Made by a program: the position numbers and the translations under genes. From positions 1 to 64,000 of the forward strand of contig CANQLJ010000004.1 of NCBI GenBank assembly GCA_947624685.1: 64,000 nt of DNA, in the 5' to 3' direction. Below the pieces are notes generated by a model. The model ran no database searches. It had not been told where the DNA came from and saw nothing but the letters and a program-made list of their open reading frames with translations. The stretch comes from Candidatus Gastranaerophilales bacterium (lineage in GTDB: Bacteria > Cyanobacteriota > Vampirovibrionia > Gastranaerophilales > Gastranaerophilaceae). Positions 1,672 through 15,258 of this stretch are shown here, piece by piece. Every line of letters starts with the position of its first letter. Position 1 is the first letter of the stretch.

Positions 1672-1701
1672 AAGCGCCCTTTAGATAACTAAAAGGCGCT
1701 T
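1672..1701 (-). terminator. Intrinsic terminator at the end of the minus-strand prepilin operon
   Basis: AAGCGCC(C)TTTAG-ataa-CTAAA(A)GGCGCTT stem, followed on the minus strand by a T run. Confidence 0.7.
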
Positions 1702-1718
1702 AATTATTTATTATATTA

Positions 1719-2393
1719 CTATTCTTCTCCGTTTAATTTCGTTGCGCGAAGCATTCTGATTTCTTCTTCACCTTCAACAATCATCTTGCCGTCGGAGCGG
1801 GCTTTAAATGTTCTTAAAGGATTAGTCGAATCGCCCGCATTTGTGTCAATTTGAAATTCGATTTCATTATCGAGCGTTGATTCATTACATATATTAACCC
1901 TTTGAGAACCAAGCGTTGCTTGGACTAAGTCGCAATTAAATTCGCCCACGATATTCCAAATGATTGTGTCAGACGTTTGAAAAGCGCAATCTCCGGCATG
2001 GAAACCTAATTGTTCAGGGTCATCTTCGATGATATTAACCTTCGTTTTAAACAATTCGCAGAATTTGTGCGTTCTAATCTCATAACCGGTTAAGGGATTG
2101 CAGTTTTCGCCGATTAAGAGCTTTGCTGATTGTATAATTGCGCAATCAGTGTTTAAAAACCCCGGTCTTTCCGTATCATAAGGATATAATGTTTCGTCGT
2201 TGACAAGCTCGGCGACAGTCCTTTCTGCCACCGAGTATGCTTTTTTAAACAACGATAAATCCCTGTCAGGCGCAGCGTTTCTAATTACTTGAAGCAGAAA
2301 TGTCGCAAGAAATGAAACGATAACCAGAACAATCAATGTTTCGGCAAGCGTAAAAGCCTGTTTTGTATTATTTCTCATTGTATTTCTTTTCAT
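1719..2393 (-). CDS. Type IV prepilin/pseudopilin-like protein
   Basis: N-terminus KQA|FTLAETLIVLVIVSFLATFLLQV: prepilin peptidase-like site with Glu at mature position 5 and a hydrophobic helix. Confidence 0.8.
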   Translation of the reverse strand: MKRNTMRNNTKQAFTLAETLIVLVIVSFLATFLLQVIRNAAPDRDLSLFKKAYSVAERTVAELVNDETLYPYDTERPGFLNTDCAIIQSAKLLIGENCNPLTGYEIRTHKFCELFKTKVNIIEDDPEQLGFHAGDCAFQTSDTIIWNIVGEFNCDLVQATLGSQRVNICNESTLDNEIEFQIDTNAGDSTNPLRTFKARSDGKMIVEGEEEIRMLRATKLNGEE

Positions 2394-2423
2394 TTTCTTT
2401 TTTACCTTTTATCTTTTTCTTTT

Positions 2424-5234
2424 CTACCAAATAATTACGACCGCACCGGGTTTACCTGTAATCATATCAATATCTTCAGGATTTTTTGTTACGGTATTTT
2501 TGCCTCTGAAGACTTGGATATTAGAGCGTTCCGACGATTGGCCGATTTTTTGTGATGTCGGGCCGCTTGCACTTGGAGCGGTGAGGTTTGTAATGTACCT
2601 TTCACCCGATGTATAGCCATACATATTTCCGCTTTCGTCATACGGAATAGATCCGGAGCCGTGACCGCTGTTACCAAAGCTTTTTGGAATGAGGAGCGAA
2701 TCTTTTGCAACCGCTTGAAGTGCGGAAGAAAATCCGCTGTCTTTAACGTGAGTTGCATTGATTTCATCCGTGTTTTTGTTCATCAATTCTTTAGAACAGC
2801 ACGGAGTACCATTTCCGCAAGCTCTTGTTTGGTCATTACCCCAGCAGAATATATATGGGCTTGACAAATATCCGCCTGAGCCGCCTTCGCCGCCTTTTGC
2901 TTTCAATACGGTTTTATTTGTGATGCCGTTTGCATTTTGCATCTTGACTATCGTATCTCCGCCTTTGGGGCCGTTGCTTGAAGTTTGCCATTTATTAGGA
3001 CTCCATTGGCCGCCTTCGCCGACTTTGATTTTTAAATCGCCGGTTACGGATGAAAGTTTAACGGATACATATTCGCCTGCTCCGCCTCCTTCGCCATAGC
3101 CGAGTTGGTTCATGGCAAAAGGAATTGTCCAGACATATTTATAATTATATCTTCCTGTTGGATATGAGTTTGAACCTTGAGGCACTTCTTCGCAGATATA
3201 TCCGCTCGGACAGCTGCCTTTTCCGGAGCCGCCTGTGCCTGTGCCATTTCCAACGTCATTTGAACCGAATACAACCGAGCCATCCGCAACTTTACATTTT
3301 TCACTATCTGTTTGTAATGCAAGGCACATCGTTTTTTGGCTCAATTCAAGATATGCAAAGCCGCTAAATGCGGATTGAGAATCTCCTTGATAGCTTCTTG
3401 CAAATCCGAGAGAATTTCTGAATGTATTCCATCCTCTTTCTGTCAAGAAATACCAGCTTCTGTCGGTGAATGTACTGCAGTTGCTTCTGCCGCAGCTATT
3501 TGAGTATTTTAATGACGTATCTAAAGCGCCAAAGTCATATGAACCGCTGCTTCCGCCTCTTGTAACATTAACGGAGCGAGGTACTAGCTGCATATGTGCA
3601 ACATAGGGGCATCCGCCTTCGCCGCCGACGGAGGTTCCCGTTGCATTATCAACAACAACGGTACATGTTAAACCGTCATCGCCATATCTGTAGTCTTCAC
3701 CTACAACAATTTTTGTTCCAAATCCTGCTGTAGTATAGACTATCGGCCCCGGTTGAGCGGGATCATGTCCTGCACAAGATATTGCCATATCAAACGGGCC
3801 TGTTATTGTTTTTTTGGTTAATTTTACACAAGGAGGAGCAGCGCCGCCGGGAGCACCCGAATAGTAGTGCCCGCAGAGTTCTTTTGTTCTTGAAGCGCCG
3901 GGAGCTGTTAAACATCCGCTGCCGCACATCGAAGCGGCAGAGGCGGTTTTTGTGTTAGTAGAGTTATCCGGAGCCAAACAAGAGCTTGGTGAAACATATG
4001 AACCTTCGCATTGAGAATCTTTGCTGCTTGCAACATATATTTTTCCTTGGCCCGCAAGGTAGCTTACTCTGCTGTTGCTGTCAATTCCTTCACCATAGTC
4101 ATAACATTCATTTGAATCATTAAGTGAATATACACAAGTTGCTTCCGTACATTGCGTACCGTCTTTTTCGACTGTGACATCTTTTTCGACTTTTTTACAA
4201 TTTTTTCCCTCATCATCACATTCTTCAACTTCTTGTGTTTCGGTTGTGTTATATTTACAATCTTTTTGATTTCCGCAAGTTGTGTGAGGATTTGATAACT
4301 CATTTGTAATTAAAGACGGATGAGGCATTAATGCGTCTCTCATACATTGAATATCATCCCAAGCAGGGTTTGTATCCCAATGTATTCCGCTTCCTTGAGC
4401 TCCCGCAGTTCCGCAGGCAAGACCAAAAGGAAGATAACCCGAGTTTGAAAAATAGCTCCAATCAAACCATTTAGGCATCGGGGTGAGCTCGGGTGCTTGA
4501 GATTGAGACCCCAATTTAACCGTTGCTTGAATAAGTTGATGATACAATAAAATTGATGTTGTAATATCGGCTCTGACTGTGATTGTGCCGTTATTGTTCA
4601 ATTGTACATAATCATCAAAGTTTGGCTTACCGGGACCATAATAAGGAATATCTTTTATAACAAGGTCAAATATTCTCATTAATTCTTTTTTAATTATGGC
4701 ATTATCCCTTCCGCCGTTGCCGCCGGGGGTTAATACTTTCCCAAAATTGCCGTTTAAGCCGCCGCCGGCTCCGCCGCCGCCAACACCATGGACAATTAAA
4801 TTTCTTGTGTTATTTGGAACTTTTACAATAATTTCCCCCGTAACAGGGTCAATTACCGTTCCACCCGGTGGCGTAGTGCCGGATGGAGGTGTAACGGGTT
4901 CTGATGGAGTACCACCTGCACCATCAGGGTTAGTCGGATCCGTAGGTCTTGCGGGGTCTGTTGTTTCGCTTCCGGGGATTACGGGAACTCTTTTAATTAC
5001 ACGTTCTTTTACAATCAAATGTGTCCCGCTATAGATGTTTTCTTTCGGTAATCCATCATCAGGGTCAACATAGATTTCATACCTTCCGTGGGTACCTCCG
5101 CCAAGAGCCGAACCTTCCATGGCATTATTTACCAACTTTCTTGAAATAATCGGCATCGTGGACGCGACGGCGACTGCTAATACTACAACGAGTATTATAA
5201 CCTCCGCCATTGAAAATGCTTTTTTCTTAAACAT
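2424..5234 (-). CDS. Very large prepilin-like protein with Pro/Thr linker and Cys-containing, glycine-rich adhesin-like head
   Basis: KKKA|FSMAEVIILVVVLAVAVASTMPIISRK prepilin start; linker PGSETTDPARPTDPTNPDGAGGTPSEPVTPPSGTTPPGG; LIVHGVGGGGAGGG ... LKIKVGEGG ... GGDTIVKM ... VLKAKGGEGGSGG ... PGAVVIIW*. The ORF track starts at 5252, but AAAAAGGG just upstream of the ATG at 5234 favours the internal start. Confidence 0.85.
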   Translation of the reverse strand: MFKKKAFSMAEVIILVVVLAVAVASTMPIISRKLVNNAMEGSALGGGTHGRYEIYVDPDDGLPKENIYSGTHLIVKERVIKRVPVIPGSETTDPARPTDPTNPDGAGGTPSEPVTPPSGTTPPGGTVIDPVTGEIIVKVPNNTRNLIVHGVGGGGAGGGLNGNFGKVLTPGGNGGRDNAIIKKELMRIFDLVIKDIPYYGPGKPNFDDYVQLNNNGTITVRADITTSILLYHQLIQATVKLGSQSQAPELTPMPKWFDWSYFSNSGYLPFGLACGTAGAQGSGIHWDTNPAWDDIQCMRDALMPHPSLITNELSNPHTTCGNQKDCKYNTTETQEVEECDDEGKNCKKVEKDVTVEKDGTQCTEATCVYSLNDSNECYDYGEGIDSNSRVSYLAGQGKIYVASSKDSQCEGSYVSPSSCLAPDNSTNTKTASAASMCGSGCLTAPGASRTKELCGHYYSGAPGGAAPPCVKLTKKTITGPFDMAISCAGHDPAQPGPIVYTTAGFGTKIVVGEDYRYGDDGLTCTVVVDNATGTSVGGEGGCPYVAHMQLVPRSVNVTRGGSSGSYDFGALDTSLKYSNSCGRSNCSTFTDRSWYFLTERGWNTFRNSLGFARSYQGDSQSAFSGFAYLELSQKTMCLALQTDSEKCKVADGSVVFGSNDVGNGTGTGGSGKGSCPSGYICEEVPQGSNSYPTGRYNYKYVWTIPFAMNQLGYGEGGGAGEYVSVKLSSVTGDLKIKVGEGGQWSPNKWQTSSNGPKGGDTIVKMQNANGITNKTVLKAKGGEGGSGGYLSSPYIFCWGNDQTRACGNGTPCCSKELMNKNTDEINATHVKDSGFSSALQAVAKDSLLIPKSFGNSGHGSGSIPYDESGNMYGYTSGERYITNLTAPSASGPTSQKIGQSSERSNIQVFRGKNTVTKNPEDIDMITGKPGAVVIIW

Positions 5235-5335
5235 AGTGTGTCCCTTTTTCATATATCTTCTTTCGTTATTTTTGTACTCTATTTATTTGTACTATTTATT
5301 TGCGCTATTAAAATTCCTCTTTTAATAATTTTTTA

Positions 5336-6409
5336 TTACCATAAAATCAAAACCGCACCGCCATGTTCGCTGTCGCTTGCAGCATAAGGAGCGCCCGGGT
5401 TTAATGTGGGTAAGGAAGTCTTGCCTAAAATTGCGCTTCTTGATTCTTGTCTTTTTAAAAGAGGGGTGATTCTTCTTGTATTAACTAAATCAATGAATTT
5501 AACAAACTGTGTTTCATAGTCGGGATTAGTGTAATCATAATTTGCGGTGTTATTTACCAAATTAAACATTTTGCTTGGGATAACTTTATAAGAAGGATTG
5601 AGCTTGAAGCTGAATTGATATTGGTTACTTACGTCTTGATAAATTGTGTTGTTTGCGCTTGAAAGCATCGCTTGTTGTTCTAAAGTAACATCGTTGTAAT
5701 TAATCGTTTGGGCTATTGCGTTATAGCGCCTTGTTGAAGAAAGATATGTCATATTTTGAGACATATTTCCATAAGTCATATCAGTATTTGAACAGGTACC
5801 TGTTTCACTGATGACTCTAATAACAGGGCCGTTATATATATCAATTGCTTCGCATCTTGTTGCATTTGGGCAATATGATGAAGGATTAGCGTATAAAAGA
5901 TTGCAGGAAGAAATTGCGTTGCTTGCAAGGTTATCAGGGTCTATAAAGTTGCCTGTGGCCCCGCTTTTTGCTTCAAGAATTGTGGTTCCGTTAATATCTC
6001 CCGCTTTAATTATTGTATCAAAAGAATGAGAAGGGGTGGAACCCGGGAAAATGGTTAATTTTTGATTTAAAACGGGGCTATAGTATGTTGCCAGTTGTCC
6101 TTCTTCATTCGCACCTGCTCCGATAGCTAATATATAGTAATTTGCGGGGCGTTGATTGAATGTTAAAGTGCAATGGCCTTGAGCCGTAACATCAAGCGGC
6201 TCACCTCTTTGAGAACGTTCGTCAAAATACTGTTGAAATATATGATTATTATCAACCCAGCAGGCAAATTGCCCTTTGATTGTTTGAATTTCAATATCGG
6301 GTTTGACTTTTGTGATGACAGGCAAAGTGACAAGGGCAATAATAATAATGATAATCATTGAAACCATTAATTCTACAAGAGAAAACGCTTTTTTGTTTGT
6401 TTTTACCAT
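5336..6409 (-). CDS. Prepilin-like protein with divergent glycine-rich head
   Basis: NKKA|FSLVELMVSMIIIIIIALVTLPVITK; ILAIGAGANEEG...KLTIFPGSTP...TTILEAKSGATG...GGAVLILW*. Start overlaps the upstream stop (ATGGTAA). Confidence 0.82.
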   Translation of the reverse strand: MVKTNKKAFSLVELMVSMIIIIIIALVTLPVITKVKPDIEIQTIKGQFACWVDNNHIFQQYFDERSQRGEPLDVTAQGHCTLTFNQRPANYYILAIGAGANEEGQLATYYSPVLNQKLTIFPGSTPSHSFDTIIKAGDINGTTILEAKSGATGNFIDPDNLASNAISSCNLLYANPSSYCPNATRCEAIDIYNGPVIRVISETGTCSNTDMTYGNMSQNMTYLSSTRRYNAIAQTINYNDVTLEQQAMLSSANNTIYQDVSNQYQFSFKLNPSYKVIPSKMFNLVNNTANYDYTNPDYETQFVKFIDLVNTRRITPLLKRQESRSAILGKTSLPTLNPGAPYAASDSEHGGAVLILW

Positions 6410-7077
6410 CTTATAATTACCTCACCGGTGTTTCCGGGGTTGGAGCCTCTTGCGCCGCCTTTTCCGCATACGGAAGTGTAATCAACTACCCTTAGAGGGT
6501 CAAAATCGATTTCCGCTTCGGAATATTGGGGCATTTCCCCATCAGCGTTGATGTTTTCATATTCGCTTGGCGGGACTTTACCCGGATACATTCCTCCCTT
6601 TGCATAAGCGACAAGCTGATAAGCATCGCGCTTCGTGCCGTCATCGTCAGTTATTTCATTAACTTTATATATTGCAGTGTTTCCGCCGTTTACGTTATCG
6701 AGATTGCCGCCTCTGCCAAGGACGATTCTGTATTTGCCTGATAATGTCGGGAAATAGACTTTTATTGCTTCGCCCGCGCTTCCTCCGCGAACGTCGCTTG
6801 AATAGCTTCCGCCGCCGACTAATTGTGCGGAATGAAATTCAAATCTACCCGTTGTATCAAAATTAAACTCACAATATATATTTCCGTTAGCATCAGGCGT
6901 GTCGTTGTGTTCGCCATCTCTGCAGGAACAAATTAATATATTCGATTTTTTTGCTTTCGGTGTGGATACTTTTGCCTTATTTAAAAGTATCGGAACACTC
7001 GCGCTCATTATGATAAAAATAAGCGTGACGCTAATTACTAATTCTGCTATGGTGAATCCGTATTTTCGCAATTCCAA
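6403..7077 (-). CDS. Prepilin-like protein with glycine-rich head
   Basis: RKYG|FTIAELVISVTLIFIIMSASVPILLNK; SAQLVGGGSYSSDVRGGSAGEAIKVYFPTLSGKYRIVLGRGG...NGGNTAIYKV...QLVAYAKGG...NTGEVIIRW*. Confidence 0.82.
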   Translation of the reverse strand: MELRKYGFTIAELVISVTLIFIIMSASVPILLNKAKVSTPKAKKSNILICSCRDGEHNDTPDANGNIYCEFNFDTTGRFEFHSAQLVGGGSYSSDVRGGSAGEAIKVYFPTLSGKYRIVLGRGGNLDNVNGGNTAIYKVNEITDDDGTKRDAYQLVAYAKGGMYPGKVPPSEYENINADGEMPQYSEAEIDFDPLRVVDYTSVCGKGGARGSNPGNTGEVIIRW

Positions 7078-7214
7078 CTCCCTATATAAGAATATAATAT
7101 CTTACGGCACATTTGTAAAATACTTTAAATAATTTTAATATATTTGTATTAATTGTAAAATATGTTAATATAAATTAAAATTAATATGGAAAATAACAGC
7201 TTCGGAGTGATGGA

Positions 7215-8276
7215 ATGAAAAAATATACAAAAAAAGCATTCACTATAATTGAATTAATTGTCGTATTTGTAATAATCGGCGTTATATTGATGCTCGAAAT
7301 GCAGACAATAAACAAAAGAATAAATCAATATGGCCCCGTATATTATAGTGTATACAGTTCATTGAGAAAAGTTGCATATAATATTTTAGCGGATTTAGCT
7401 TGTCCGGATTGTATCGGGCCTTATACAACAGAAAACCCCGGCACCCCGGATGAAAGAAAAATCTGCACCTCAACCGGAAAAGAAACATTCTGCCCCGACG
7501 GAGCAAGGCAATTTCCCGATAACTTTGAAGATATGTGTGAAAGAATGGCCGATTTTTATAACGCAGTCGGTGAAGTTAATTGTCAAAACAGCGCAACGCG
7601 AGCTATTAATGACGATGTAACAAATATTAATGACGAAACGGAAATATTTCGAACCGCAAACGCAGTAAGATTCTATCTTTCCGATTTAAAACACATAACG
7701 CTTGACATAAGAGACGAAGACGGCACAGTCACAGGACATGAAAACATCGGCTATTTCATCGTTTATACCGATATAAACGGTTCAAAAGCACCAAACAACA
7801 TCCGCCACGATGGAACGGACGTCAAACCCGATATTGTACCTTTTGCAATCACAACAAGAGGCGAAGTTGTCCCAATCGGCTATCCTATCTATGATTCAGA
7901 CTATTTGACGGCGAAAATTCAATATCCTTTTGACGCAAGCGAAGGTTATGACCCAAAAGACCAAATATCAGAGTCATTTAACTTCTATCAAGCGGTCTAT
8001 GGCGCTTGGGGCAACTATACTTCCACAAGCTCTGAACCCACAGGTACCACGCGAGACATAACCCCAAAATCAGATATATCAATGACTATAAACTTTAATG
8101 ACTTTTTGCCGGAAGAAGTTAGAACAATCTCAGTATCGGATGAAAGGTATCCAAGCGAAGAAATATTGAGAAAATTCAGAGATGAAGTTTGGCAAAAATC
8201 AAGAGACAAAGGATGTAACCCGAATAATTATAATTGCAGAGTAACAGTTGATTCTAACACCACAACAAGGTTCTAG
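7215..8276 (+). CDS. Type IV prepilin-like protein, divergently transcribed
   Basis: KKA|FTIIELIVVFVIIGVILMLEMQTINK; YFIVYTDINGSKAPNNIRHDG, a DxNGxxxPN motif common in bacterial pseudopilin-like proteins. SD-like GGAG before ATG. Confidence 0.8.
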   Translation: MKKYTKKAFTIIELIVVFVIIGVILMLEMQTINKRINQYGPVYYSVYSSLRKVAYNILADLACPDCIGPYTTENPGTPDERKICTSTGKETFCPDGARQFPDNFEDMCERMADFYNAVGEVNCQNSATRAINDDVTNINDETEIFRTANAVRFYLSDLKHITLDIRDEDGTVTGHENIGYFIVYTDINGSKAPNNIRHDGTDVKPDIVPFAITTRGEVVPIGYPIYDSDYLTAKIQYPFDASEGYDPKDQISESFNFYQAVYGAWGNYTSTSSEPTGTTRDITPKSDISMTINFNDFLPEEVRTISVSDERYPSEEILRKFRDEVWQKSRDKGCNPNNYNCRVTVDSNTTTRF

Positions 8277-10072: not shown

Positions 10073-11047
10073 CTATCCTTTAGGTAAGTAGCTTTGAGAA
10101 TACCTGTAGGATTGGATAAATCCGACTGATTCATACATTTTTAAAGCGCTTATTGAACTTAAATCCAATGTCGCATTAAGCTCCGTTATATCGATTATTC
10201 CGCCCTGATCAAGCTTGATTATATCTAATACCGCAGATTTAACAAGGTTTTTAGAGAGCTTTTGCCCTTGGTGTTCTTTTAATATCCCGATTAGAGGCAG
10301 ATTTGCAATCGAATCGGCCGTGACATTAGCCAAACAAAAGCCCACAAGCTTGTTTTCATAAAGAAGGACTTTGCTTGCCTGGGGCAAAAATCTTCCATAG
10401 ATTGAACTTGTGATTTTATGAGCAATGTCTCTGCAGCCTTCGATAGTTGTGAAACGAGTGTCAAAATTCGTGTCGGAAGAATCTTTGAAAGCTCCGTATA
10501 TGACTTGGGCAAGCTCTTCAAAATATATGTCACGATAGGGCGTGAGCTTATAGCCTATTGGCATGTCGTTGTAGTTTTGGGTTGTTAATTCTTTTATGAG
10601 TTGTTTATTATCTATATCAAAAACCACAACGCTTGTGTCGATGAAGTTAAAACCAAATTGAGCGATTTCCTTTTTAAAGCTTTCTTGAACACCGAGCATC
10701 GCATAGCTTACGATTGCGTGTTTACGCTGTTTTTTGGTCACTTCCATGAATTTTTCAAAAAGTGCTAATCTCTTTTTATTAATGTCTTCGGTACCCAAAC
10801 AATGTATTACAAAAAGCTCGATAACATCATGCTGCACCGTGGTATATGCCAAAAAACCCGTGGGGATAGAATCTTCAAGCAAAATTAAACAAGAAATTAA
10901 ATCTTTTTTAAATGAGTCAATAAAATCATCATAAACCAAAGGGTCAATTTCAAATTTATAGTCCGTGCGAGCTTTGAGGCGAAAATCGTTATATGCGCCT
11001 TGGAATACTCTGAAATATTTTTCTTCTAATAAAGCGATTTCATACAT
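10073..11047 (-). CDS. GNAT-family acetyltransferase, possibly tandem GNAT
   Basis: 324 aa; C-terminal half KVLLYENKLVGFCLANV...IGILKEHQGQKLSKNLVKSAV...ALKMYESVGFIQSYRY is GNAT-like. Confidence 0.65.
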   Translation of the reverse strand: MYEIALLEEKYFRVFQGAYNDFRLKARTDYKFEIDPLVYDDFIDSFKKDLISCLILLEDSIPTGFLAYTTVQHDVIELFVIHCLGTEDINKKRLALFEKFMEVTKKQRKHAIVSYAMLGVQESFKKEIAQFGFNFIDTSVVVFDIDNKQLIKELTTQNYNDMPIGYKLTPYRDIYFEELAQVIYGAFKDSSDTNFDTRFTTIEGCRDIAHKITSSIYGRFLPQASKVLLYENKLVGFCLANVTADSIANLPLIGILKEHQGQKLSKNLVKSAVLDIIKLDQGGIIDITELNATLDLSSISALKMYESVGFIQSYRYSQSYLPKG

Positions 11048-11175
11048 AAAGACAATACTTTCCTGATTTTTGCTTATTGTATCATGGACTTAATCCAATT
11101 TTCAAATTTTATGTGTAGTTTTGTATCATATTTTACAAAATGGTAAAAAATTAATTTTTAATATAAAATAAAAAT

Positions 11176-11973
11176 ATGTTCGAACTGAATAAAACATTTA
11201 CTTATCAAAGATTTGTTTTGCTTTGGGGACAAATTGAGGAGTTTTTGATATTAATCGGAAACCTGGGCAAAGACTTTGTCGATGTCATAAAGCGGATTTT
11301 GTCTTTGGAGATTAATTTAAACGAAACGATTGAACAATCAAAGCGCTTCGCGTATGACAGTTTACCCATAAGCTTAACCATTGTTTCAATGACATCAGCT
11401 ATCATTGCAATGCAGTTGGCGCCTGAGCTTGCGCGCCAAGGTGGAGCTGATTATACGGGAATGTTAAGCGCTCTTGTGATGGTTAGGGAGCTTGCTGCCG
11501 TTATGAGCGCATTTGCTATCATTTCAATGGTCGGAGCTTCATTTGCTTCTGAAATTGCTTCAATGGCGGTAACGGAACAAATTAGCGCGATGAAAGTCTT
11601 AAAAGTCGACCCCATTGCCTATCTTTTTGTCCCAAGGTTCATTGCGGGAGCCTTGTTTATGCCCGTTGTGTTCATAGTTTCGGGGTTTTGCGGACTTGTT
11701 TGCGCGGGGCTTGTATCAAACTGGTGTGCGGATTTGAGCCTTTTAAATTATTTCACATCCCTTTGGCATGGGCTTTATATCAGAGATATTTTTATAGCAC
11801 TGTTAAAAAGCTCGTTTTTCGGTGCAACAATTGCGCTAATCAGCTCATCATGCGGCTACAGCGCCCATGGCGGAGCAAAAGAGGTCGGTTTAGCGACCAC
11901 AAAAGCAGTCGTGAGTTCGTTTCTTGCAATTGCAATGTGGGATTTCATCTTTGCTTCGGTATTTTATCTGTAA
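11176..11973 (+). CDS. mlaE: MlaE-family lipid ABC transporter permease
   Basis: 265 aa; AIIAMQLAPELARQGGADYTGMLSALVMVRELAAVMSAFAIISMVGASFASEIASMAVTEQISAMKVLKVDPIAYLFVPR. Confidence 0.9.
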   Translation: MFELNKTFTYQRFVLLWGQIEEFLILIGNLGKDFVDVIKRILSLEINLNETIEQSKRFAYDSLPISLTIVSMTSAIIAMQLAPELARQGGADYTGMLSALVMVRELAAVMSAFAIISMVGASFASEIASMAVTEQISAMKVLKVDPIAYLFVPRFIAGALFMPVVFIVSGFCGLVCAGLVSNWCADLSLLNYFTSLWHGLYIRDIFIALLKSSFFGATIALISSSCGYSAHGGAKEVGLATTKAVVSSFLAIAMWDFIFASVFYL

Positions 11974-11987
11974 AATAAAAGGGTATT

Positions 11988-12713
11988 ATGACACTAGAAG
12001 TTAAAAATTTAACAAAAATATTTGATAATAAAAAAGTTTTGGATAATGTATCATTCAAAGTTGAAAACGGGCAGACCCTTGGCGTCGTAGGGTTTTCGGG
12101 GAGCGGAAAATCGACACTTTTAAAAATAATCTCAGGCATTTTAGAAAAAGATTCTGGTGAAATAATTCTTCCGAATAACTCCGAAGTTGCGATGGCTTTT
12201 CAATACAGCGCCCTTTTTGATTTTTTGGATGTGTATGATAACATTGCTTTTCCGCTTGTCGAAAGAAAAGAATTTCGAGGAAAATATTCTAAAGACGAAA
12301 TTACAAAAATAGTCTCTCAAAAGCTCCAAATGGTCGGTTTAGAAGGAATTGAAGAAAAATTTCCTTCCGAATTATCAGGCGGTATGCAAAAAAGAGTCGG
12401 GTTCGCCCGCGCAATTGTAACCAATCCCAACGTCATTTTATATGACGAACCCACATCCGGCCTTGATCCCGTTACTTCAACGATGATAGAAGATTATATA
12501 GTCAGATTAAAAAGAGAGCTAAATGCCTCATGTGTTGTTGTAACGCACCAATTATCAACCATAAGGCGCGCAGTTGACTATGTAATTATGCTCTATCAAG
12601 GTAAAATCGTCTTTGACGGCAAAGTGGAAGACTTTTTAAACAACAAAAACGAATACGCAAGACAATTTGTCACAGCCTCAATTCAAGGGCCAATGAATAT
12701 CATAGGAAAATAA
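11988..12713 (+). CDS. mlaF: MlaF-like ABC transporter ATP-binding protein
   Basis: Walker A GFSGSGKST, signature LSGGMQKRVGFARAI, Walker B VILYDEPTSGLDP; directly after mlaE. Confidence 0.92.
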   Translation: MTLEVKNLTKIFDNKKVLDNVSFKVENGQTLGVVGFSGSGKSTLLKIISGILEKDSGEIILPNNSEVAMAFQYSALFDFLDVYDNIAFPLVERKEFRGKYSKDEITKIVSQKLQMVGLEGIEEKFPSELSGGMQKRVGFARAIVTNPNVILYDEPTSGLDPVTSTMIEDYIVRLKRELNASCVVVTHQLSTIRRAVDYVIMLYQGKIVFDGKVEDFLNNKNEYARQFVTASIQGPMNIIGK

Positions 12714-12746
12714 AACAATAAAATTGAACTAAAAAAGGAAAAATCA

Positions 12747-14108
12747 ATGGATAAAAAAAATTATTCTTCATCTTTAAAAGTCGGCTTATTAACCTTGGGC
12801 GCAGTCTCAATTTTAATCTTCACCGTGCTTTGGGTCAAAGGAAGAAGCTTATCTTCGGGTGAACGTATTGATTTAGCCTTTAAAGACGTCAACGGAATGA
12901 GAGCAGGAAGTGCAGTTCAGATGATGGGGCTTCGAATCGGCCAAGTCGAAGAAATAACTCCCGTAATTCAAGGGAAAGACAGTTTCGTCAAACTTCGCTT
13001 CGTAATTACGGAAAAAGGCGTCAAAGTGCCTCTTGCTTCCACCGTTTCAATCCAGCAATCGGGAATCATCGGGGAACAATTCCTCGAAGTCACCCCGCCA
13101 AAGACGGAAGTGAGGTATTTTGAAACATCAAAACCCGATACCGTAATTAAAAAAGACCAGCCCATCTATATGGTTTTATCAAAAGGCGAAAAAGAAATTG
13201 CAAGAGTAATTGATGTTGAAGTCGTGAATAAATCTCAATTGTCCTATGAACTTAAGCAATCAATCAAAACCAAAAAAGCCCTCAAAATCTCCTATGCGAT
13301 TAATCTTGCGGGGTTATTCATAAATAAAGATGATGTAAATATTAAAATCCAAAACGATAAATTATATTTTTACCTAAACGACGGCGAAATTATCCAAACA
13401 CCAAACGAAAACCTTAAATATACAGTAATTGAGCCGATGAGACTGTCTGATTTTATGGATTTAGGCTTTAGAGCAACACATGCCATGCTTGAAACAAACG
13501 ACAAAATCAACGAAATTTTATCGGATGAATTTATCTTAAGCATAAAAGATTCCGTTGAAAACATAAATAAATTAACTAAAAGCGCAAACACAACTCTCGA
13601 CAAGGCTTCCGTTCTTATCGATTCAAGCAAAAACGAACTTACAAGCTTAATTAATCAAAGCGAAGATTTAATCAAAAACTTAAATAAATTAACAATGAAT
13701 CTAAACGAGCTTATATCCGATGAAACATTGAAAAATGACGTCGTTTCAAGCATCAAATCAGTCGGCAGAATGTCTGATAATATAAACAGAATCTTAGAAG
13801 ACGACCAAACAAACGAAATTATGTTTAACCTAAACGAAACAATGAGAAACCTAGGCGACATATCCTCTTATGTCAACGAATATACAAAAGACGAAAAGCT
13901 CAAAGAAGACATAACTTCAACAATATCTAATCTTTCAAGCATCACTTGCAACATCTCAAAAGTCATGGACGATTATAACAGATTGGACGAAAACGAAAAA
14001 TTGAAGCTCAAAGACACAATCAAAGACGTTTTAGCCATTACAAAAAATGTCAAAAAATTCTCCGAAAAATTAAACAAGAGATTTTTATTGTTCAGGCTGA
14101 TGTTCTAA
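12747..14108 (+). CDS. mlaD: MlaD/MCE-domain protein with long helical C-terminus
   Basis: N-terminal TM; FKDVNGMRAGSAVQMMGLRIGQVEEI MCE core; downstream helical repeats; follows mlaEF. Confidence 0.88.
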   Translation: MDKKNYSSSLKVGLLTLGAVSILIFTVLWVKGRSLSSGERIDLAFKDVNGMRAGSAVQMMGLRIGQVEEITPVIQGKDSFVKLRFVITEKGVKVPLASTVSIQQSGIIGEQFLEVTPPKTEVRYFETSKPDTVIKKDQPIYMVLSKGEKEIARVIDVEVVNKSQLSYELKQSIKTKKALKISYAINLAGLFINKDDVNIKIQNDKLYFYLNDGEIIQTPNENLKYTVIEPMRLSDFMDLGFRATHAMLETNDKINEILSDEFILSIKDSVENINKLTKSANTTLDKASVLIDSSKNELTSLINQSEDLIKNLNKLTMNLNELISDETLKNDVVSSIKSVGRMSDNINRILEDDQTNEIMFNLNETMRNLGDISSYVNEYTKDEKLKEDITSTISNLSSITCNISKVMDDYNRLDENEKLKLKDTIKDVLAITKNVKKFSEKLNKRFLLFRLMF

Positions 14109-14145: not shown

Positions 14146-15258
14146 ATGAAAAATTATAAACTATATTTTCAAAAAATCCACTATGGCGCGCTTAAACCTA
14201 ATTTATTTACGGGCGCAATGTTATCCGTGTGCGAATTTTTTTATAAAAATATCGTAGTTTTTAAAAATCTTTTATATGAAAAAAATATCTTAAAAGAAAA
14301 TAGTGTCGATTGTTTTGTGACTTGTGTCGGAAATCTCACAACGGGAGGTGTGGGTAAAACCCCCATTGTAATATATCTTGCAAATAAAAAAGAGCGCGAA
14401 GGTAAGCGCGTTGCAATTATATCAAGAGGTTACGGCTCAAAATTGTCGAAATTGGCGGCAAAAAACAGCAAAAACGCCCCTTCAATTATAAAAGATTATG
14501 AAAAAATATACTATACAGACGGTTCAATTTGCGGGGATGAAGCATTTCAATGTGCAAAAAACATAAATAAAAACGTAATTATGATAACTTGCCCAGATAG
14601 ATTTAAAGCGGCAAAACTGGCAACAGAAAAATATAAAGTCGATGAAATAATTCTTGATGACGGCTTTCAAAATCGAAAATTAAAAAAAGACTGTTCAATT
14701 CTTGTTCTTGATTCTAAAATGCGCTTCGGAAACAATCATCTTTTGCCCCTTGGGCCTCTAAGAGAGCCCATTCAAGAGGGATTTAAAAGGGCGGATGAAA
14801 TTATCCTAACTGATAAGAATGATGAAAACCTATCTGATGCTATTAATTGGATTAAAAAAATAAATAAAAAAAATCTTAAAATAAAAATATCCAAAATGCT
14901 CCCAAAAAGAATCTATAACGCTCAAACAAAAGCAAATATAGTAAATTTTAGGGAAAGTAAAAACGAAAATGAAAATGAAAGTAAAAAGCAAAAAGCAATA
15001 GCATTTAGCGCAATCGGGCAAAATGAGCAATTTTTTAATTTTGCAAAAGAATTTTATGACATAGTCAAATGTCCTTTTTGCGACCATTATAAATACACAA
15101 AAAAAGACATTTTGGGTTTAGTCAAGCTTGCAAAAGAAAACAAAACAAATGTTTTTTTAACAACCCAAAAAGACGAAACAAAAATTGCGCCGTTAATCAA
15201 AGACCTTTGCGGCTATTGTTTCAACGTCTTAGAGCTTGAGGTTGAATTTTGCGAATAG
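14146..15258 (+). CDS. lpxK: Tetraacyldisaccharide 4'-kinase
   Basis: VGNLTTGGVGKTPIVIYLA, ISRGYGSK, VDEIILDDGFQNRKLKKDCSILVLD, LLPLGPLREP. Confidence 0.93.
   Translation: MKNYKLYFQKIHYGALKPNLFTGAMLSVCEFFYKNIVVFKNLLYEKNILKENSVDCFVTCVGNLTTGGVGKTPIVIYLANKKEREGKRVAIISRGYGSKLSKLAAKNSKNAPSIIKDYEKIYYTDGSICGDEAFQCAKNINKNVIMITCPDRFKAAKLATEKYKVDEIILDDGFQNRKLKKDCSILVLDSKMRFGNNHLLPLGPLREPIQEGFKRADEIILTDKNDENLSDAINWIKKINKKNLKIKISKMLPKRIYNAQTKANIVNFRESKNENENESKKQKAIAFSAIGQNEQFFNFAKEFYDIVKCPFCDHYKYTKKDILGLVKLAKENKTNVFLTTQKDETKIAPLIKDLCGYCFNVLELEVEFCE

Follow-up and report, generated by a model that had tools for sequence, protein, structure and literature searches.

The question raised by the locus studied here is why a bacterium would furnish several of its pilins with large glycine-rich heads, and whether such heads might sit together at the tip of a pilus. 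The locus lies on contig 4 of a 2.0-Mb genome of a Candidatus Gastranaerophilales bacterium, a gut-dwelling relative of the cyanobacteria, in a 64,000-nucleotide stretch of that contig that was analyzed as a whole (the window). Between positions 1719 and 8276 there are five prepilin genes, four on the minus strand (A-B-C-D) and one, E, divergent on the plus strand. The original prediction had described such a cluster of five, and all of them, as well as each of the motifs it quoted, are present in the sequence.

Gene A (6403..7077, minus strand) has a TTG start and encodes a 224-aa prepilin with the leader MELRKYG, a mature protein beginning FTIAE, and a compact, putatively TNF-like/glycine-rich head that ends in EVIIRW. 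Gene B (5336..6409, minus strand) begins inside the last 7 bp of A; its 357-aa prepilin carries a divergent head, apparently of the same family as those of A and C, and ends in AVLILW. Gene C (2424..5252, minus strand) encodes a 942-aa prepilin with the terminal motif AVVIIW. It had been predicted as 2424–5234, and that reading frame exists, but the longest version runs to 5252 and 5234 is an internal start. Also absent from the prediction was the division of the C head, in which a first strand (residues about 148–166) is split from the remainder (about 717–942, with the Gly_rich_2 head at 718–876) by an insert of ~550 residues. D (1719..2393, minus strand; 224 aa) and E (7215..8276, plus strand; 353 aa, divergent) are conserved prepilins without the W-type head. 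The 137-bp region between A and E (7078..7214) holds two promoter-like sites on the minus strand (7159–7132 and 7119–7091, by consensus match only). Downstream from D, the last gene, there is a terminator-like hairpin of 13 pairs followed by a T run (1672..1701, minus strand), consistent with an A-B-C-D operon. Elsewhere in the window, an LpxK-like gene (14146–15258, identified by eye) is consistent with a lipid-A-bearing outer membrane, and an Mla-like transporter set (11176–14108) adjoins it.

A, B, and C are prepilins, as they have a class III signal with its methylation motif. The Pfam N_methyl cut-off is passed by B, D, and E. A itself falls below it, and N_methyl is matched by 14 of the 17 A-family members, all 15 of the B family, and seven of 14 in the C family. 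In all five prepilins, Glu occupies mature position 5.

The machinery to assemble such proteins is encoded in the genome: PilB, PilC, a secretin, two proteins over the PilT-family cut-off, and a prepilin peptidase (a PilD homologue). The secretin matches PilQ (166 bits) slightly better than GspD (161 bits). It had been left undecided whether the locus served a pilus or a pseudopilus; the two PilT-family retraction ATPases and the secretin nearer PilQ than GspD make a pseudopilus less likely, and a retractile type IV pilus is likely in the source genome. The PilB-like ATPase, on another contig of the genome (L082:11745-14495, C15; 917 aa), has an MshE-type c-di-GMP-binding N-terminal domain, which suggests that pilus extension may be under c-di-GMP control.

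The set of genes behaves as a module. The order of E, divergent, then A-B-C-D is kept in many genomes of the same genus, which bears out the idea of a dedicated locus. In a scan of genome contigs, the C family found four loci and A alone found none. The module looks accessory, because full-length B (at least 277 bits) occurs in 15 of 28 genus genomes and the secretin in 24. Four genomes that are 97–99% complete (G008, G018, G021, and G025) have the secretin and no match to B at E ≤ 1e-6. C is absent from the loci of G011 (L036) and G007 (L039), in which A, B, D, and E remain. Some local peculiarities may be recorded here. The A orthologue of G007 (L039:8472-9221) ends in VIIK, without the terminal W, and the module of G027 has beside it an additional D-like prepilin lengthened to 559 residues (L038:457-2133). 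Across the 28 genus genomes the D profile has up to 34 matches (in G012; 26 in G008), an unusually large prepilin repertoire for genomes of ~1.9 Mb.

We consider it reasonably probable that the locus encodes an accessory adhesive tip assembly of a retractile type IV pilus, possibly a heterotrimer, of which we infer the tip position, the adhesion, and the trimer. This resembles the GspI-J-K and PilV-W-X sets, in which a few different minor pilins likewise make up a tip assembly. Those sets, however, are core and nearly universal in their systems, and GspK lacks Glu5, whereas the module described here is accessory and Glu5 is found throughout. In another explanation, A–E would themselves correspond to GspH-I-J-K or FimU-PilV-W-X, as the core set of minor pilins that primes the pilus and is required for its assembly, with heads that are structural and not adhesive. 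The grouping of several prepilin genes in one operon beside a divergent prepilin would fit this, as would the conservation of D with the trio and also with related trios in other genera, and known core complexes are likewise located at the tip (PMC9934059). The near-complete genomes with a secretin and no B match speak against it; in addition, with Glu5 in all five no GspK-like member is apparent, and C can go missing while the other four stay, as in G011 and G007. Because the module is not present wherever the secretin is, we judge a core priming complex unlikely.

A separate question is whether A, B, and C would act together, and here the arrangement of related genes is informative. Across the family, uninterrupted runs of W-ended prepilins located off contig ends comprise three genes (36 runs), two (4), or one (24). 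Two of the triplets (L108 and L153) are the same locus fetched twice, leaving 35 triplets and 24 single genes among 63 distinct runs, and this preponderance of threes and ones is new here. Among the sampled loci, intact W-ended prepilins never stood four or more in a row. Exceptions occur in g37, with one run of two and one of three plus a frame-broken fourth. At L089:10946-13326 (G180), the fourth W-ended prepilin of a tandem series is broken by a frame change into a prepilin part (10946-11473) and a glycine-rich part (11377-13326). Other departures from the triplet rule are the missing C of G011 and G007 and some pairs cut by contig ends. The sampled loci were picked via PF21722 matches or homology to A, and the genomes are related rather than independent; given this biased choice and kinship, we attach no probability to the rule.

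Triplets are found in genera g1, g2, g6, g26, g30, g31, and g41. In g2, g26, g30, and g31, the best cross-genus triplet match lies at the same position for 41 of 42 members, which argues for three old, distinct subunits. In g41, by comparison, each of the 15 triplet members has its nearest relative in a sister rather than in a head from another genus, pointing to separate triplication or strong homogenization; by sequence, this genus seems to have built its triplet independently. It could be supposed that the heads work independently, each being an adhesin in itself or forming a homotrimer, and that triplets are the product of tandem duplication and inheritance with no joint complex. The 24 sampled runs that are single genes agree with this, and the sisters in g41 and g37 do resemble later duplicates. 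Against it are the dominance of exact threes in seven genera, the near-perfect position-specific orthology across four of them, and the lack of any intact run of four or more, and we regard independent action as less likely still than a core priming complex.

The relatedness of the heads was examined by profile–profile comparison. Orthologue-family profiles from which the pilin helix had been removed were aligned using hhalign, giving P=3.7e-7 for A–B, P=3.5e-10 for A–C, and P=1.9e-6 for B–C. In the control (60 column-shuffled versions per pair, with composition kept), the best P values were 0.12, 0.10, and 0.03, respectively, and the best shuffled score was 21.8 compared with 49–68 for the real alignments. 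The glycine-containing middle of C did not match the heads in profile–profile comparison (P 0.22 and 0.9). With real scores so far above the shuffles and a null result for mid-C, we conclude that the heads are homologous and not merely alike in composition; B is placed in the family by its sequence profile only. That the glycine pattern is compositional, or the likeness a chance one between unrelated heads, is hardly credible, for although glycine-rich sequences are prone to spurious similarity and B has no credible Pfam match other than N_methyl, profiles of identical composition score no higher than 22 and glycine-rich mid-C matches nothing, so composition, already refuted for A and C, is ruled out by the shuffles as the explanation. 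The terminal W is retained in 15/15 B homologues, 14/14 C homologues, and 16/17 A homologues. Thus, the likeness beyond the pilin helix that had been seen by eye holds up in profile comparison (P from 3.5e-10 to 1.9e-6, compared with at least 0.03 in shuffles), as does the conservation of the C-terminal W motif. For A and C, we found neither unrelated folds nor a purely compositional glycine pattern nor an unconserved W. The AlphaFold model of B (pLDDT 38.8) was too poor to use, and a structure search with it gave no usable match.

The nature of the heads is indicated by family profiles and, for A, by a structural model. Against Pfam Gly_rich_2 (PF21722; curated cut-off 24.3 bits), C scores 24.1 bits and A 14.0 bits, both under the cut-off, and B has no match; the G004 orthologue of A exceeds it (26.4 bits), and PF21722 matches seven of 17 A-family members. 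The head of C may therefore be assigned to the Gly_rich_2 family, as a family match only. The AlphaFold model of A, built from an alignment of four sequences, is of modest confidence (mean pLDDT 62.6). In it, a helix (residues 10–34) is followed by eight strands, arranged as the motifs would predict, and the head strands come directly after the helix without a separate small pilin module between them. Searched against the PDB using Foldseek, the model had as its first ten matches only chains of the ALK glycine-rich domain (prob 0.60–0.99), the eleventh having a prob of only 0.11. The best E is 0.03 and TM-scores are 0.2–0.4, so low that the likeness to ALK and to phage proteins is stated at the level of the fold family only. 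Among viral models, the best matches were phage “glycine-rich domain-containing” proteins, with E as low as 7e-6 and prob 1.00; another viral protein matched was Gp38 of Synechococcus phage syn9. A TNF-like/glycine-rich fold, as in ALK and phage fibers, is thus predicted for the head of A at fold-family level. There is a phage precedent in the Pam3 tail-fiber protein gp24, in which a helix precedes a TNF-like domain with a glycine-rich tip and which is similar to ALK (PMC9608196).

The prediction of phage-fiber-like glycine-rich heads is upheld to this extent by PF21722 and Foldseek, but homology to phages at the sequence level was not found. PHROG profiles of phage structural families did not match the heads, and tblastn of the heads of A and C against 50,697 phage records (E 0.1) returned nothing, nor did tblastn of C against plasmids. 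Sequence-profile searches of A in PHROGs, NCBIfam, and PDB recovered the pilin helix only. The phage link is therefore one of fold family only. A match of C to succinate dehydrogenase (E about 0.04–0.09) was judged to be due to chance.

Within the order, PF21722 has matches in 63 of 289 genomes, and all among the matches listed belong to the same bacterial family. In the phylum sample, only seven genomes outside the family have a match. Six of these outside loci were checked: a prepilin motif is missing from four, another is truncated, and the last (L111) has a motif match that is probably spurious, as it lies inside a repetitive glycine-rich stretch. Within the family, all but one of the matches in the first 30 loci for which an N-terminus was available are prepilins, and the exception (L054) is a frame-broken prepilin. 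Elsewhere in the phylum, one uninterrupted reading frame (L110; G506:C1:876659-917869) encodes 20,437 residues with at least seven Gly_rich_2 matches, a giant glycine-rich protein that, as far as seen, is no prepilin. In G003, several very similar glycine-rich ORFs ending in GGSGVVIILVN are cut off at the ends of contigs C15, C17, C18, and C8 (L093-L095); these probably belong to a family of repeated surface proteins at which the assembly broke.

In the adhesive tip assembly that we propose, A, B, and C would be minor pilins whose N-terminal helix enters the filament, and the usual small pilin head would be replaced (A) or much enlarged (B and C) by the TNF-like/glycine-rich domain. The conserved strands would serve as a scaffold, and the variable loops, including the ~550-residue insert of C, would be the probable ligand-binding face; mean identity in C is 0.41 in the insert, 0.76 in the helix, and 0.85 in the first strand. 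D and E would connect these proteins with the shaft. It is probable that the three heads cannot replace one another and belong, as different subunits, to a single complex. That complex may be a heterotrimer, an idea suggested by the trimerization of the TNF-like heads of gp24 and by the keeping together of three unlike heads. Adhesion at the tip by some arrangement ranks as likelier than a heterotrimeric tip. The fuller version, which we offer tentatively, is that the tip is an obligate heterotrimer in which three unlike heads of the TNF-like/glycine-rich type combine, a phage-fiber-tip architecture made from pilins. It would have been kept as gene triplets in at least seven genera, have arisen more than once, and have diversified into a set of adhesins that spans the family in gut Gastranaerophilales.

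The closest known relatives in design are the modular type IV pilins, such as PilB and PilC of Streptococcus sanguinis, which also join a prepilin segment to a domain that is not pilus-specific (PMC8179133, PMC9934059). As here, several such minor pilins are encoded side by side, and together they are believed to make up a complex at the tip with affinity for host molecules; that modular pilins can display adhesive modules at the tip is established, since a bulky module can be accommodated there and can bind ligands. The S. sanguinis modules, however, are vWA or lectin domains and not TNF-like/glycine-rich. In A, no distinct small pilin domain seems to intervene between helix and head, and the paralogous heads described here recur three at a time. 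CofB of enterotoxigenic E. coli (PMC8179133) is likewise a large minor pilin with extra beta domains and a predicted tip-exposed trimer, but it is a homotrimer with beta-repeat and beta-sandwich domains, and it carries a secreted partner, CofJ. Pam3 gp24 (PMC9608196) shares the N-terminal helix, the TNF-like domain with strands extending into a glycine-rich tip (-GGGGxGG-), and a conserved stem with a variable distal end. The phage protein forms homotrimers and has a chaperone of its own, whereas here there are three different proteins, each with a membrane-type prepilin helix. The ALK receptor domain, which took the top ten places when the A model was searched against the PDB, is from an animal (human) protein, and with low TM-scores the likeness is again one of fold family. 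In the open-access literature, we found no paper that joins pilins to a TNF-like/glycine-rich head or that describes such pilins in Gastranaerophilales. We would place the locus among the modular pilins.

If the proposal is true, the TNF-like/glycine-rich receptor-binding fold of phage fibers and ALK would join the modules that are displayed by type IV pili, under a simple genetic rule of three heads or one. Pili and phages would then have reached the same torch-like design of helix plus head for surface binding, and the family would have its first candidate adhesin repertoire for gut Gastranaerophilales.
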